A stretch of 64,000 nt of DNA from Poseidonibacter parvus (GTDB taxonomy: Bacteria > Campylobacterota > Campylobacteria > Campylobacterales > Arcobacteraceae), in NCBI RefSeq assembly GCF_001956695.1, contig NZ_CP019070.1:682001-746000 (forward strand), given 5' to 3'. The notes beneath the pieces are model-generated. The model had not been told where the DNA came from, ran no database searches, and worked only from the letters and a program-made list of their open reading frames with translations. Below, one piece after another: positions 1 to 13,417 of the stretch (positions within the stretch are counted from its first letter, which is position 1; every line of letters begins with the position of its first letter). The position numbers were made by a program, and so were the translations under genes.

Positions 1-912
1 AACAAAACCAGTTGCATAAACAACAGATTTTCTTGCTTCCTTAGCATTACCAACAGTAAAAAATCTCATAAGAACGTGAGGTAAACCAGCAGTTCCTAAC
101 ATAAGAGCCATACCTAAAGAAATAGCAGAAATAGGGTCAGAAATAAATCCACCAGGAGCAAGAATTGATTCACCTGCTGAATGATTTTCAACAGCTTGAA
201 CTGCTAAAGATTCAAAAGAGAAATCAAAGTGATATAAAACCATAATTGCCATGAATGATACACCTGAAAGTAATAAACAAGCTTTGATAATTTGTACCCA
301 AGTAGTTGCTAGCATTCCACCAAATGTAACATATACAATCATTAATGCACCAACCATGAATACAGCATATTCATATTCCATACCAAATAATACTTGAATT
401 AATTTACCAGCTCCAACCATTTGAGCAATTAAATATAAAATTACAACGGCAATAGAACCAAACGCAGCAAGAGTTCTAATTTCTTTTTGGCCTAATCTAT
501 AAGCAGCAATATCAGCAAAAGTAAATTTACCTAAGTTTCTTAACTTTTCTGCCATAAAGAATAAAATAACTGGCCAACCAACTAGGAATGAAACTGCATA
601 GATAACACCATCATAACCTTTTAAGTAAATAAGACCTGAAACTCCTAAGAATGCAGCAGCAGACATGTAATCTCCAGCAATTGCTAAACCATTTTGAAAA
701 CCTGTAATTCCACCACCAGCAGTATAAAAATCACTTGCAGATTTAGTTTTACTAGCAGCCCAGTAAGTAATACCAAGTGTACCAGCAATAAAAATTAAGA
801 ACATAATAATCGCAGGAATATTAAGATCTCTTTGAACCGCTTCAAATTCAGCATCACCAGCAGCAAACGCTGTTAGTGCAAAAATTGTAATTAGTGTTAA
901 TATTTTAAGCAT
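1..912 (-). CDS. actP: Acetate/cation symporter ActP-like, copy 1 (partial, C-terminal part outside the window)
   Basis: Inner-membrane sodium:solute symporter (SSS family) expected to import acetate or related monocarboxylates with a cation. Only the first 304 codons are in the window. The N-terminus is hydrophobic and signal-like, ending in an AAG-type region, followed by the DFYTAGGG and [10 protein letters not shown] segments typical of ActP. By eye it is very similar to the complete copy at 1586-3238, so the pair arose by duplication. Its ATG overlaps the stop of the upstream DUF485 gene (TAATG), which implies translational coupling. Substrate is inferred from family; other short-chain acids are possible. 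Confidence 0.85.
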
Positions 913-8653: not shown

Positions 8654-9316
8654 TTAAACAGAGTAATATCTGTCAATTTTGTAACCTAAACCTCTAATAT
8701 TCTTTATGAAATCTTCTTTTAGTGCTTTTTTTAGCCTTGAGATTTCTGCTCTTATAGTAGGATTATCAATATTCTCTCCATCCCAGATGTCAATTCTAAA
8801 TCGCTCGAAGTCTACTATCATATTTATATTAAGTGCTAGAATATGAATTATCTCTAATTGCTTCTTTGTTAGGTTCTGTGGTTCTCCATTAAAATATAAG
8901 GTTTGAGTATCTTTTGCATAAGAGTAATTTTCTGAGAATCTTATGTGAGAAGTATTGCTTTGATCTTTTTTTAATAATTGGTTTATTTTTATACCTAGTT
9001 CTTCTAGATGAAAAGGTTTTTTTATATATTCTCTACAACCTAAGTCATATGCTTTAGAAATATCTTCAATATCAATTTGCGCAGATATATAAATTGTCGG
9101 AATATATATCTTTTTTTCATTAAGTTCAGACAAAATTGTAAAGCCATCTTTAGTAGGAACGTTTATATCCATAATTAGAAGGTCAAAAGAGGTATCAACA
9201 CTGTCAATAACATCTTGTCCATCAGTAAAACTTTCAACCATATGCCCAATATTTCTTAAATACTCACATATTGAGTTATTTAACATTAATTCATCTTCAA
9301 GTAATAGTATTTTCAT
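8654..9316 (-). CDS. OmpR-family response regulator
   Basis: A 220-residue two-component regulator. The receiver domain (1-120) has the acidic pair E7/D8, phospho-acceptor D50 in LLIMDINVP and the KKPF lysine near 101. The C-terminal winged-helix DNA-binding domain (about 130-218) ends RGLGYKID as in OmpR relatives. Its start lies inside the 3' end of the upstream histidine kinase gene (20-bp overlap), so the two are co-translated. Neighbouring symporter operons have phased direct repeats that fit this regulator class; carboxylate uptake is the likely target (inference). Confidence 0.93.
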   Translation of the reverse strand: MKILLLEDELMLNNSICEYLRNIGHMVESFTDGQDVIDSVDTSFDLLIMDINVPTKDGFTILSELNEKKIYIPTIYISAQIDIEDISKAYDLGCREYIKKPFHLEELGIKINQLLKKDQSNTSHIRFSENYSYAKDTQTLYFNGEPQNLTKKQLEIIHILALNINMIVDFERFRIDIWDGENIDNPTIRAEISRLKKALKEDFIKNIRGLGYKIDRYYSV

Positions 9317-10880
9317 TTATTTTAAACCTATAAGTAAATTTTGTTTCTTTATCGTTTGAATCTAATCTTATTATAACTAAATTCTTGTCACAGATTTCTT
9401 TTACAATTTTTAAGCCCAGACCAAATCCACCACGGGCAGAATTTTCTCTATAAAAATCATCAAAAATTTTATTTTGATATTCAATTTTTTTAGAATGTGT
9501 TGTAATTGAAAATTCAACTTCATTATCATTTATATAATCAAGTCTTACAAAAATAGGTGATTTTGCATATGAATATTTTATGGCATTTGATATATTATTA
9601 TCTATAACTCTTTGAAATTCTGTAATATTAAATTTTATATAAATATCTTCTTGTATATTACTAACAAAATATAAAGAGTTTGATTTTGCAATTTCTCCAA
9701 AAAAATCTAATCTATGCATAACGATATTTGAAAGATTTAAATACTCTTTTTCATATATAACTCTATCTTTTTTTATTAAATATGATAGGTCATCATAAAT
9801 ATATTGAATTATTTTTGCTCCTGATTCTATATGGGTAATATATTTGTTTTCAGGAACTTTCATTTTTAGTAAATCAATATTTGTTTGAATTATTGATAAA
9901 GGAGTGTTGATTTCATGTACGGAGTTTTTTATAAAAGTTTTTTGTGATTCAATAAGCTTTGTAAGCTCTTTTGTCTTTTCATCTACTTTATATTCTAGAT
10001 TTTTATTTAAGTCTTCTAGCATATGAGTTTTTAATTTTATATTATTCATTGCATCTGTTGCATAATTTGCAATAACTTTAAACTCTCCAAAAATAATTCT
10101 ATTTTGATTTATTGGTTCATCATTTTTTTGTGATTCTTTAAAATATTTACCAATTTCTTTTACATCATTTAAAATAAGTATAGTTGCATTTTTATAAATG
10201 AATATAGAATAAAGTACTAACATTATTGTTAGTGATGTTATTTGTAAAGTATAATCAGATATTTTTTGATTGTACTCATAGTTTTTTGCAAGTACAAGTT
10301 TATTTATCTTATCTAAATATACACCTTTGCCAATAGTCCAGTTCCATTCTTTATATGAGTTTGCATACGATATTTTTTTTGCATTATCTTCTATATCTGG
10401 TTTATACCAAACATAATCAATATAACCTCCCTCATTTTTTTTTGAAATATTAATTAATTCTTCTATAACTTTTTTTCCATTTACATCGGTAAGTTTAATT
10501 AAATTTTCTCCAATTTTAGTATTTTCAATTGGATGATATAAAGAGGTTCCATCAAATTCATATATAAATAAATAGTCATTTATATTATCACTTACTCTTA
10601 GTTTTGTTAATGCTTCTAATACTTCTTTTTGTATTTGTTTAGTACTTTTATTTTTTTTATGTTTAGTATGGTAATAATCTATAAAATTAATTACAGAGTT
10701 AACATCATTTTTTATTAAAGCTTGTTGATTAGTTGAATAATCAGTTTTTAATGTAAGAATTTTTTCTTGTAACTCTTCATGAGCATTGTTAATTATTATA
10801 AAAGTAAAAAAAGAAATTAATATAATAATAAAAAGTATACTGTAAAGAATTAGATGATATAGACTTTTGGCTTTGAACAT
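9297..10880 (-). CDS. Membrane sensor histidine kinase with periplasmic Cache domain
   Basis: A 527-residue kinase. Transmembrane helix 1 spans about residues 9-31 and helix 2 about 209-229. They enclose a periplasmic single-Cache-type domain with the WNWTIGKGVYLD segment near 179-190, found in small-molecule sensors. A coiled stretch leads to the H-box with H322 in KNSVHEINTPLS. The ATPase part has an N-box (ISNAIKYSYAKS) and a G-box (GGFGLGLKIV). The ligand is unknown; carboxylates are a common Cache ligand. It is the first gene of an operon with the OmpR-type regulator. Confidence 0.9.
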   Translation of the reverse strand: MFKAKSLYHLILYSILFIIILISFFTFIIINNAHEELQEKILTLKTDYSTNQQALIKNDVNSVINFIDYYHTKHKKNKSTKQIQKEVLEALTKLRVSDNINDYLFIYEFDGTSLYHPIENTKIGENLIKLTDVNGKKVIEELINISKKNEGGYIDYVWYKPDIEDNAKKISYANSYKEWNWTIGKGVYLDKINKLVLAKNYEYNQKISDYTLQITSLTIMLVLYSIFIYKNATILILNDVKEIGKYFKESQKNDEPINQNRIIFGEFKVIANYATDAMNNIKLKTHMLEDLNKNLEYKVDEKTKELTKLIESQKTFIKNSVHEINTPLSIIQTNIDLLKMKVPENKYITHIESGAKIIQYIYDDLSYLIKKDRVIYEKEYLNLSNIVMHRLDFFGEIAKSNSLYFVSNIQEDIYIKFNITEFQRVIDNNISNAIKYSYAKSPIFVRLDYINDNEVEFSITTHSKKIEYQNKIFDDFYRENSARGGFGLGLKIVKEICDKNLVIIRLDSNDKETKFTYRFKINENTIT

Positions 10881-10990: not shown

Positions 10991-11066
10991 TGGTGACCCG
11001 TGATGGATTCGAACCATCGGCCACCTCCTTAAAAGGGAGATGCTCTACCAGCTGAGCTAACGGGTC
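10991..11066 (-). tRNA. tRNA-Lys (UUU), array copy 5 in transcription order
   Basis: 76 nt with encoded CCA. Acceptor GACCCGT pairs with ACGGGTC, T-arm TTCGAAT loop, anticodon loop CTTTTAA. Last gene of the 17-tRNA array on the minus strand. Confidence 0.97.
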
Positions 11067-11080
11067 ACATAAATAAAAAG

Positions 11081-11157
11081 TGGCGCGGTAGAAGGGACTC
11101 GAACCCTCGACCTCCTACGTGACAGGCAGGCGTTCTAACCAACTAAACTACTACCGC
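11081..11157 (-). tRNA. tRNA-Asp (GUC), repeat unit 1
   Basis: 77 nt with encoded CCA and G discriminator. Acceptor GCGGTAG pairs with CTACCGC; anticodon loop CTGTCAC. Confidence 0.97.
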
Positions 11158-11251
11158 GCTTAAAAATACTAAATACAAAAATTGTAAATAGATGTCACAA
11201 TTAAAATAAGATTTGAAAATCAATGCCACTGCATTTTGTGATTCTTAAAAA

Positions 11252-11327
11252 TGGTGGTCGATGCAAGACTCGAACTTGCGACGTCTACCTTGTAAGGGTA
11301 GCGCTCTACCAACTGAGCTAATCGACC
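11252..11327 (-). tRNA. tRNA-Val (UAC), repeat unit 1
   Basis: 76 nt with encoded CCA. Acceptor GGTCGAT pairs with ATCGACC; anticodon loop CTTACAA. A 94-nt spacer separates it from the Asp gene. Confidence 0.97.
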
Positions 11328-11340
11328 ATATAAATGTTAG

Positions 11341-11415
11341 TGGTGATCCCTAGGGGATTCGAACCCCTATGGTTGGAATGAAAATCCAAAATCCTAACCA
11401 TTAGATGAAGGGACC
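11341..11415 (-). tRNA. tRNA-Glu (UUC), repeat unit 1
   Basis: 75 nt with encoded CCA. Acceptor GGTCCCT pairs with AGGGATC (one G-U pair); anticodon loop TTTTCAT. Confidence 0.97.
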
Positions 11416-11437
11416 ATAATCAAATAACATTTATAAA

Positions 11438-11513
11438 TGGTGACCCGTGATGGATTCGAACCATCGGCCACCTCCTTAAAAGGGAGATGCTCTACCAGCT
11501 GAGCTAACGGGTC
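11438..11513 (-). tRNA. tRNA-Lys (UUU), repeat unit 2
   Basis: Identical to the Lys gene at 10991-11066, displaced by exactly 447 bp; CCA encoded. Confidence 0.97.
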
Positions 11514-11527
11514 ACATAAATAAAAAG

Positions 11528-11604
11528 TGGCGCGGTAGAAGGGACTCGAACCCTCGACCTCCTACGTGACAGGCAGGCGTTCTAACCAACTAAACTACTA
11601 CCGC
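11528..11604 (-). tRNA. tRNA-Asp (GUC), repeat unit 2
   Basis: Identical to the Asp gene at 11081-11157, displaced by 447 bp. Confidence 0.97.
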
Positions 11605-11698
11605 GCTTAAAAATACTAAATACAAAAATTGTAAATAGATGTCACAATTAAAATAAGATTTAAAAATCAATGCCACTGCATTTTGTGATTCTTAAAAA

Positions 11699-11774
11699 TG
11701 GTGGTCGATGCAAGACTCGAACTTGCGACGTCTACCTTGTAAGGGTAGCGCTCTACCAACTGAGCTAATCGACC
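11699..11774 (-). tRNA. tRNA-Val (UAC), repeat unit 2
   Basis: Identical to the Val gene at 11252-11327, displaced by 447 bp. Confidence 0.97.
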
Positions 11775-11787
11775 ATATAAATGTTAG

Positions 11788-11862
11788 TGGTGATCCCTAG
11801 GGGATTCGAACCCCTATGGTTGGAATGAAAATCCAAAATCCTAACCATTAGATGAAGGGACC
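11788..11862 (-). tRNA. tRNA-Glu (UUC), repeat unit 2
   Basis: Identical to the Glu gene at 11341-11415, displaced by 447 bp. Confidence 0.97.
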
Positions 11863-11884
11863 ATAATCAAATAACATTTATAAA

Positions 11885-11960
11885 TGGTGACCCGTGATGG
11901 ATTCGAACCATCGGCCACCTCCTTAAAAGGGAGATGCTCTACCAGCTGAGCTAACGGGTC
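11885..11960 (-). tRNA. tRNA-Lys (UUU), repeat unit 3
   Basis: Third identical Lys gene, 894 bp from the first. Confidence 0.97.
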
Positions 11961-11974
11961 ACATAAATAAAAAG

Positions 11975-12051
11975 TGGCGCGGTAGAAGGGACTCGAACCC
12001 TCGACCTCCTACGTGACAGGCAGGCGTTCTAACCAACTAAACTACTACCGC
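11975..12051 (-). tRNA. tRNA-Asp (GUC), repeat unit 3
   Basis: Third identical Asp gene, 894 bp from the first. Confidence 0.97.
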
Positions 12052-12145
12052 GCTTAAAAATACTAAATACAAAAATTGTAAATAGATGTCACAATTAAAA
12101 TAAGATTTGAAAATCAATGCCACTGCATTTTGTGATTCTTAAAAA

Positions 12146-12221
12146 TGGTGGTCGATGCAAGACTCGAACTTGCGACGTCTACCTTGTAAGGGTAGCGCTC
12201 TACCAACTGAGCTAATCGACC
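12146..12221 (-). tRNA. tRNA-Val (UAC), repeat unit 3
   Basis: Third identical Val gene, 894 bp from the first. Confidence 0.97.
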
Positions 12222-12234
12222 ATATAAATGTTAG

Positions 12235-12309
12235 TGGTGATCCCTAGGGGATTCGAACCCCTATGGTTGGAATGAAAATCCAAAATCCTAACCATTAGAT
12301 GAAGGGACC
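12235..12309 (-). tRNA. tRNA-Glu (UUC), repeat unit 3
   Basis: Third identical Glu gene, 894 bp from the first. Confidence 0.97.
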
Positions 12310-12331
12310 ATAATCAAATAACATTTATAAA

Positions 12332-12407
12332 TGGTGACCCGTGATGGATTCGAACCATCGGCCACCTCCTTAAAAGGGAGATGCTCTACCAGCTGAGCTA
12401 ACGGGTC
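12332..12407 (-). tRNA. tRNA-Lys (UUU), repeat unit 4
   Basis: Fourth identical Lys gene, 1341 bp from the first. Confidence 0.97.
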
Positions 12408-12421
12408 ACATAAATAAAAAG

Positions 12422-12498
12422 TGGCGCGGTAGAAGGGACTCGAACCCTCGACCTCCTACGTGACAGGCAGGCGTTCTAACCAACTAAACTACTACCGC
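12422..12498 (-). tRNA. tRNA-Asp (GUC), repeat unit 4
   Basis: Fourth identical Asp gene, 1341 bp from the first. Confidence 0.97.
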
Positions 12499-12592
12499 GC
12501 TTAAAAATACTAAATACAAAAATTGTAAATAGATGTCACAATTAAAATAAGATTTAAAAATCAATGCCACTGCATTTTGTGATTCTTAAAAA

Positions 12593-12668
12593 TGGTGGTC
12601 GATGCAAGACTCGAACTTGCGACGTCTACCTTGTAAGGGTAGCGCTCTACCAACTGAGCTAATCGACC
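12593..12668 (-). tRNA. tRNA-Val (UAC), repeat unit 4
   Basis: Fourth identical Val gene, 1341 bp from the first. Confidence 0.97.
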
Positions 12669-12681
12669 ATATAAATGTTAG

Positions 12682-12756
12682 TGGTGATCCCTAGGGGATT
12701 CGAACCCCTATGGTTGGAATGAAAATCCAAAATCCTAACCATTAGATGAAGGGACC
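12682..12756 (-). tRNA. tRNA-Glu (UUC), repeat unit 4
   Basis: Fourth identical Glu gene, 1341 bp from the first. Confidence 0.97.
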
Positions 12757-12778
12757 ATAATCAAATAACATTTATAAA

Positions 12779-12854
12779 TGGTGACCCGTGATGGATTCGA
12801 ACCATCGGCCACCTCCTTAAAAGGGAGATGCTCTACCAGCTGAGCTAACGGGTC
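12779..12854 (-). tRNA. tRNA-Lys (UUU), first transcribed gene of the array
   Basis: Fifth identical Lys gene, 1788 bp from the leftmost one. It is nearest to the consensus promoter at 12893-12921 and therefore transcribed first. Upstream of it the repeat homology ends. Confidence 0.97.
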
Positions 12855-12892
12855 ACTATTATCTTAAGAATATTTTCTTAAAATGGAGTGGA

Positions 12893-12921
12893 ATTATAAT
12901 AGATTTCTTTTTATTTGTCAA
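12893..12921 (-). promoter_or_regulatory. Perfect consensus sigma-70 promoter for the tRNA array
   Basis: On the minus strand TTGACA (12916-12921) and TATAAT (12893-12898) are separated by exactly 17 bp. Transcription would begin near 12886, about 32 bp before the first tRNA-Lys. The -35 box lies in the last codons of the upstream CinA-type gene (12911-13417). A full consensus -35 is rare in this lineage and fits a very strong stable-RNA promoter. Confidence 0.85.
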
Positions 12922-13417
12922 TAGTTTTTTTAATAAATTCATAAATTTTTGCAAGGGCTGTTTTTGCTGCTTGAATTTGTACTTCTTCTCTATTGCCATT
13001 AAAGTGATAAATATCAATTATTTTTTCTTCTTTAAAGCCCATTATACCGATAACAACAGTACCTATTGGTTTATTAATTGAGCCTCCACCTGGACCTGCA
13101 ATTCCTGATACTGCAATAGCATAATTTGAATCAAGTTTTTTTGTAATTCCATCAAGCATTTGACTTACAACTTCTTCACTTACAGCTCCATATTTTTCAA
13201 GTGTAGAATTCTTTACATTTAATTGTTTATTTTTTATATTATTTGAATAGCTTACAATTGCCCCATTAAAAATATCTGATGAATTTGGCACTTTTGTAAT
13301 CATATATGAAATAAGACCACCTGTACAAGATTCTGCTGTTGTAATTGATTGTTTATTAATTCTAAGTATATCTTGAAGTTCTTGCATTTGTATGTCATTG
13401 AAAATTTCATCATACAT
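12911..13417 (-). CDS. CinA C-terminal domain nicotinamide-nucleotide amidohydrolase (PncC-like)
   Basis: A 168-residue protein equal to the stand-alone CinA C-terminal domain. It has TAESCTGGLISYMITKVPNSS (residues about 27-47; catalytic Ser region) and the glycine-rich VSGIAGPGGGS near 103-113. PncC enzymes deamidate nicotinamide mononucleotide in the pyridine-nucleotide salvage pathway. The N-terminal MoCF-like domain of full CinA is absent, as in E. coli PncC (YgaD). Its last codons double as the -35 region of the tRNA-array promoter, which may tie array expression to the sequence of this gene end. Confidence 0.88.
   Translation of the reverse strand: MYDEIFNDIQMQELQDILRINKQSITTAESCTGGLISYMITKVPNSSDIFNGAIVSYSNNIKNKQLNVKNSTLEKYGAVSEEVVSQMLDGITKKLDSNYAIAVSGIAGPGGGSINKPIGTVVIGIMGFKEEKIIDIYHFNGNREEVQIQAAKTALAKIYEFIKKTIDK

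Follow-up and report, generated by a model that had tools for sequence, protein, structure and literature searches.

In the window, a 64,000-nucleotide stretch of DNA from the marine bacterium Poseidonibacter parvus (Arcobacteraceae), ARAGORN located 17 tRNA genes at positions 10991-12854 of the minus strand, transcribed in the order Lys-(Glu-Val-Asp-Lys)x4. Rfam returned 17 tRNA matches at positions agreeing with these genes, and TRF reported the array as a tandem repeat with a period of 447, 4.2 copies and a 99% match; both the gene order and the 447-bp periodicity given in the initial annotation are thereby confirmed. Transcription begins with a tRNA-Lys(UUU) gene at 12779-12854, followed by four Glu-Val-Asp-Lys units of 447 bp at 12332-12778 (unit 1), 11885-12331 (unit 2), 11438-11884 (unit 3) and 10991-11437 (unit 4), all on the minus strand. 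The tRNA genes are identical between the four units, and a base-by-base comparison showed that the near-identical units, with a period of exactly 447 bp, differ at one base only, which lies in the Val-Asp spacer (unit offset 224). On the plus strand this base reads G, A, G and A at 11215, 11662, 12109 and 12556, respectively. The nearest relatives have A on the plus strand (T in the RNA-sense strand) and therefore G looks derived, with units 1 and 3 carrying the ancestral base and units 2 and 4 the derived base. This alternation suggests, as its simplest explanation, the duplication of a two-unit block. The units had been annotated as identical, which holds for the tRNA genes and fails at this spacer base, and the near kilobase of homology ascribed to each unit fits two units, one being 447 bp. 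Chance is not at issue for a 1.8-kb tandem array of 99-100% identity. Since the repeat in the family is Lys-Glu-Val-Asp, the better reading of the array is (Lys-Glu-Val-Asp)x4 with an extra terminal Lys, the last gene of unit 4.

The conserved neighbours of the array are a cinA-like gene upstream (12911-13417, minus strand) and, in most family genomes compared, a histidine kinase gene downstream (9297-10880, minus strand). A promoter with 12 of 12 consensus positions (TTGACA-17-TATAAT; 12893-12921, minus strand) lies 38 bp upstream of the first tRNA-Lys. The same full sigma-70 consensus precedes all of the Arcobacteraceae arrays whose leaders were scanned, except two that match at 11 of 12. 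Inside the array the promoter scan found no promoter-like site on the minus strand, nor did the scan used for intrinsic terminators find a terminator-like site in the array region. Given the upstream promoter and no terminator-like site in the region, all 17 genes would most likely be transcribed as a single polycistronic precursor from one strong sigma-70-type promoter. The leader between the -10 box and the first tRNA (12855-12892, minus strand) holds the conserved TTCCACTCCATTTT and a TTAAG..CTTAA inverted repeat. Across the family, TTCCA(C/G)TCCA is conserved directly after the -10 box in array leaders, and in many genomes the first Lys is preceded by a short inverted repeat. In three other genomes (G033, G093 and G096; L099, L250 and L252) a GC hairpin followed by a T run, resembling an intrinsic terminator, was found in a Val-Asp spacer; in 3/3 it was the last such spacer, just before the final tRNA-Asp.

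The array lies in one closed contig of 2,866,429 bp and the genome has a total of 65 tRNA genes (Rfam). ARAGORN analysis of the Rfam-match stretches placed every genomic Lys (5), Asp (4) and Val (4) tRNA gene in the array, together with four of the five Glu genes; the fifth, at G000:1338171, is clearly different in sequence. Lys, Glu, Asp and Val codons make up 9.3%, 6.5%, 6.2% and 5.9% of the window's codons, respectively. The suggestion that the array serves common codons (AAA, GAA, GAU and GUA) is fair but modest in force, as Ile and Leu codons are commoner in the window, yet have no tRNA genes in the array. Elsewhere in this genome a Cys-Ser-Leu tRNA cluster occurs twice (G000:C1:1210000-1211800, L298, and 2684000-2685800, L299), the two copies sharing a 403-bp stretch of 99.75% identity, and three tandem tRNA-Asn genes lie at G000:C1:1948000-1948800 (L111).

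About 60 Arcobacteraceae genomes supplied arrays for comparison, and our counts rest on the 31 assembled in one or two contigs. All 31 hold two to five Lys/Glu/Val/Asp sets. Unit number differs among them: four plus a Lys in the window's genome, five in G009 ((Lys-Glu-Val-Asp)x5), which is the one further genome of the genus that is closed, three in G011, G020, G036 and G108, and two in the rest. Some family arrays have the within-unit order Lys-Val-Glu-Asp and a few have a displaced or extra Glu. Outside the family, single Lys-Glu-Val-Asp units were found in G039, G050 and G053, at two places in G050. Wherever flanks were compared the array adjoins cinA, near ileS, and in most family genomes a kinase/regulator pair lies on the opposite side. 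Unit number thus varies between relatives at the same locus, and by these comparisons the array, with its head-to-tail, near-identical units, is an extreme case of an amplification common to the whole family at the same locus. The amplification had been called unusual; it is extreme here, but for this operon and locus amplification is the rule in the family. A Lys after Asp is common to the species nearest to that of the window (G002, G007, G004 and G003, all drafts), where it could also mark the beginning of one more unit that the assembly has lost. Contigs of G001, G003, G004, G075 and G102 break off within the array or at its border, and that of Poseidonibacter ostreae ends within the first tRNA-Lys (L124, L123). 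Because draft contigs end there, draft tRNA counts in the family are unreliable at the array.

Spacers within an array were 98-100% identical in the window's genome and in G060, G061, G063, G065, G074, G078, G079, G083 and G097, and identity between the species compared was 17-89%. In G009, G020, G036 and G108 the last unit has diverged, and those upstream of it match each other wholly or almost wholly. This pattern is the one expected from unequal crossing-over or gene conversion when the end unit escapes. Homogenisation is not universal, because G018, G022, G026 and G034 each have two diverged units. The alternating base in the window and the spacer order A-A-B-B-C in G009 point to recent block duplications. 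With unit number differing between related genomes and units homogenised within many of them, gene-dosage amplification combined with recombinational lability, as first put forward for this locus, is still the best reading.

The four Val-Asp spacers (12499-12592, 12052-12145, 11605-11698 and 11158-11251 for copies 1 to 4, minus strand) appear to encode a conserved, apparently undescribed RNA with two hairpins and a GUGAC motif. In the predicted structure of the 94-bp spacer, a bulged hairpin with a loop of the AGUG type is followed by the motif GUGAC(A/U)U and then by another hairpin, which ends about 10 nt before tRNA-Asp; in copy 4 these lie at approximately 11249-11212, at 11198-11194 (GUGAC) and at approximately 11191-11169, respectively (minus strand). 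Among 14 distinct stem sequences, 9 of 12 pairs have changed on both sides with pairing kept. Of the cells, 94% were paired, compared to 80% in shuffles, with 0/500 shuffles as good and all slid versions far worse, although these statistics lean towards the proposed structure as the 14 sequences were excerpted and hand-aligned around the proposed stems. RNAalifold on a MAFFT alignment of 11 full spacers recovered the same two helices, with both-side changes in 7 of 11 pairs. The case for an RNA structure rests on this covariation, because the folding energies of single spacers are unexceptional (z -0.6 to -2.4). With the derived base, which two of the four copies carry, the predicted hairpin 1 is weaker (-6.4 instead of -10.5 kcal/mol). 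No Rfam family other than tRNA passed its gathering score, and none did so in the Val-Asp spacer; other weak matches fell far below their cut-offs, none lying mainly inside the spacer. We also considered a decayed tRNA and rejected it by eye, the covarying hairpins being unlike a cloverleaf.

The spacer element was found in 23/104 family genomes (model R2) and, among 150 sampled genomes of the order, in none but its own. With models R1 and R2, strong matches in the genomes searched fell only in the array, and every one whose surroundings were read was a Val-Asp spacer, including those of G114 and G124. A search with the short hairpin pattern returned matches elsewhere; those fetched lay inside open reading frames and are thus probably chance. 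The Val-Asp spacer measures 93-95 bp in the other members of the genus; in two further genera, g10 and g19, part of the genomes have one of 85-93 bp, and in genus g15 the element sits in spacers of 87 bp (G124) and 206 bp (G023). Between the Val and Asp genes of most other family members there are 4-40 bp. Since the element is absent or eroded in most family genomes, the spacer RNA is not needed for array function generally.

We give about even chances to the reading that the spacer encodes a new family of structured RNA. With four copies here, this RNA would be released from the tRNA precursor or act inside it, in processing, antitermination or regulation, and would travel with the amplified operon. 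It is improbable, in our judgement, that the element is instead an internal promoter or a protein-binding DNA palindrome: the element is AT-rich and stops 8-11 bp short of tRNA-Asp with a conserved TAT, and hairpin 2 is a palindrome, but stem sequences change while pairing is kept. Moreover, the promoter scan lists no spacer site, a looser scan gave hexamers and positions inconsistent between genomes, and in G062 and G069, where hairpin 2 is missing, GTGAC lies approximately 19 bp from Asp, too close for a -35 box. For the array itself, an assembly artefact, with one unit repeated by the assembler in a genome that truly has fewer, was weighed because draft relatives break or collapse there, marking the locus as hard to assemble. 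We regard this as very improbable: the genome is a closed single contig, the mistaken copying of one unit would not be expected to yield a base that alternates from unit to unit, and independent closed family genomes show two to five units. The 65 tRNA genes are also close to the 64 published for Arcobacter sp. LPB0137, a 2.87-Mb one-contig strain (PMC6131481), which is maybe the same genome and thus not independent. A plasmid-borne or mobile array was rejected, as a plasmid search gave scattered tRNA similarity with no match covering 80% of the query, and synteny is conserved.

We propose that an ancestral Campylobacterales Lys-Glu-Val-Asp operon was amplified in place, with unequal crossing-over giving rise to four units and a terminal Lys. 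One promoter and one 17-gene precursor would mean that each transcription event yields four to five copies of each tRNA. As the array is the sole source of Lys, Asp and Val tRNAs and nearly the sole source of Glu tRNA, selection should keep several units, and recombination would shift their number and homogenise the copies. The Val-Asp spacer RNA would most likely act in cis, affecting how the precursor is folded, processed or transcribed. It counts against this proposal that codon use in the window does not single out Lys, Glu, Val and Asp, and that most family members manage with two units. Unit number could also drift by crossing-over with no dosage benefit, and its variation between relatives is what such neutral turnover would produce; we consider this rather unlikely, given that every family genome examined in one or two contigs retains two or more sets, though deletion between near-identical repeats should be easy, and that the strong promoter is conserved throughout the family. 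As a whole, an operon amplified in place, with a single promoter, a dosage effect and a conserved spacer RNA, is an explanation that we hold to be probable.

No description of the array or its spacer RNA was found in the literature searched. The array reflects an ordinary mechanism, the in-place amplification of an essential tRNA operon, taken beyond its usual extent, and by analogy may work like the tandem dosage arrays of other bacteria. Like Escherichia coli glyV/X/Y and serTGA of Pseudomonas fluorescens SBW25, both within-genome tandem tRNA duplications (PMC4539685, PMC7661048), it consists of head-to-tail copies that raise tRNA gene dosage. However, the SBW25 duplications span 45-290 kb and newly evolved in the laboratory, whereas here a whole four-tRNA operon unit is present in 4-5 copies, fixed at the species level and recurrent across the family. 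The definition of a tRNA array unit by Tran et al., as cited in PMC5966550, asks for at least 20 tRNA genes at a density of at least two per kb; by that definition the 17 genes in 1.864 kb (9.1 per kb) are dense enough and too few, and the relative G009, with 20 genes, would pass. The present array differs from such units also in being chromosomal and syntenic, and in that three of its tRNAs have no other source in the genome. The tandem tRNA arrays of Entamoeba (PMC2652664) are alike in repeating units of up to five tRNA genes. They differ in belonging to a eukaryote, in being many and in having short tandem repeats as spacers, not a conserved hairpin RNA. The putative spacer RNA itself resembles 3'ETS-leuZ of E. 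coli and Salmonella (PMC5222698) in being encoded beside tRNAs in a polycistronic tRNA transcript, and differs from it in sequence and position.

In summary, the array is a known kind of thing and the spacer RNA is its new part, within the limits of the literature searched. Short-read genomes undercount tRNA genes at this locus. Together with relatives outside the family, these arrays form a natural copy-number series, from one to five units, of an essential tRNA operon that mostly lies at the same locus, and therefore the relation of tRNA gene dosage to growth is directly testable. Moreover, the conserved spacer RNA provides a concrete and testable new element in a tRNA operon.
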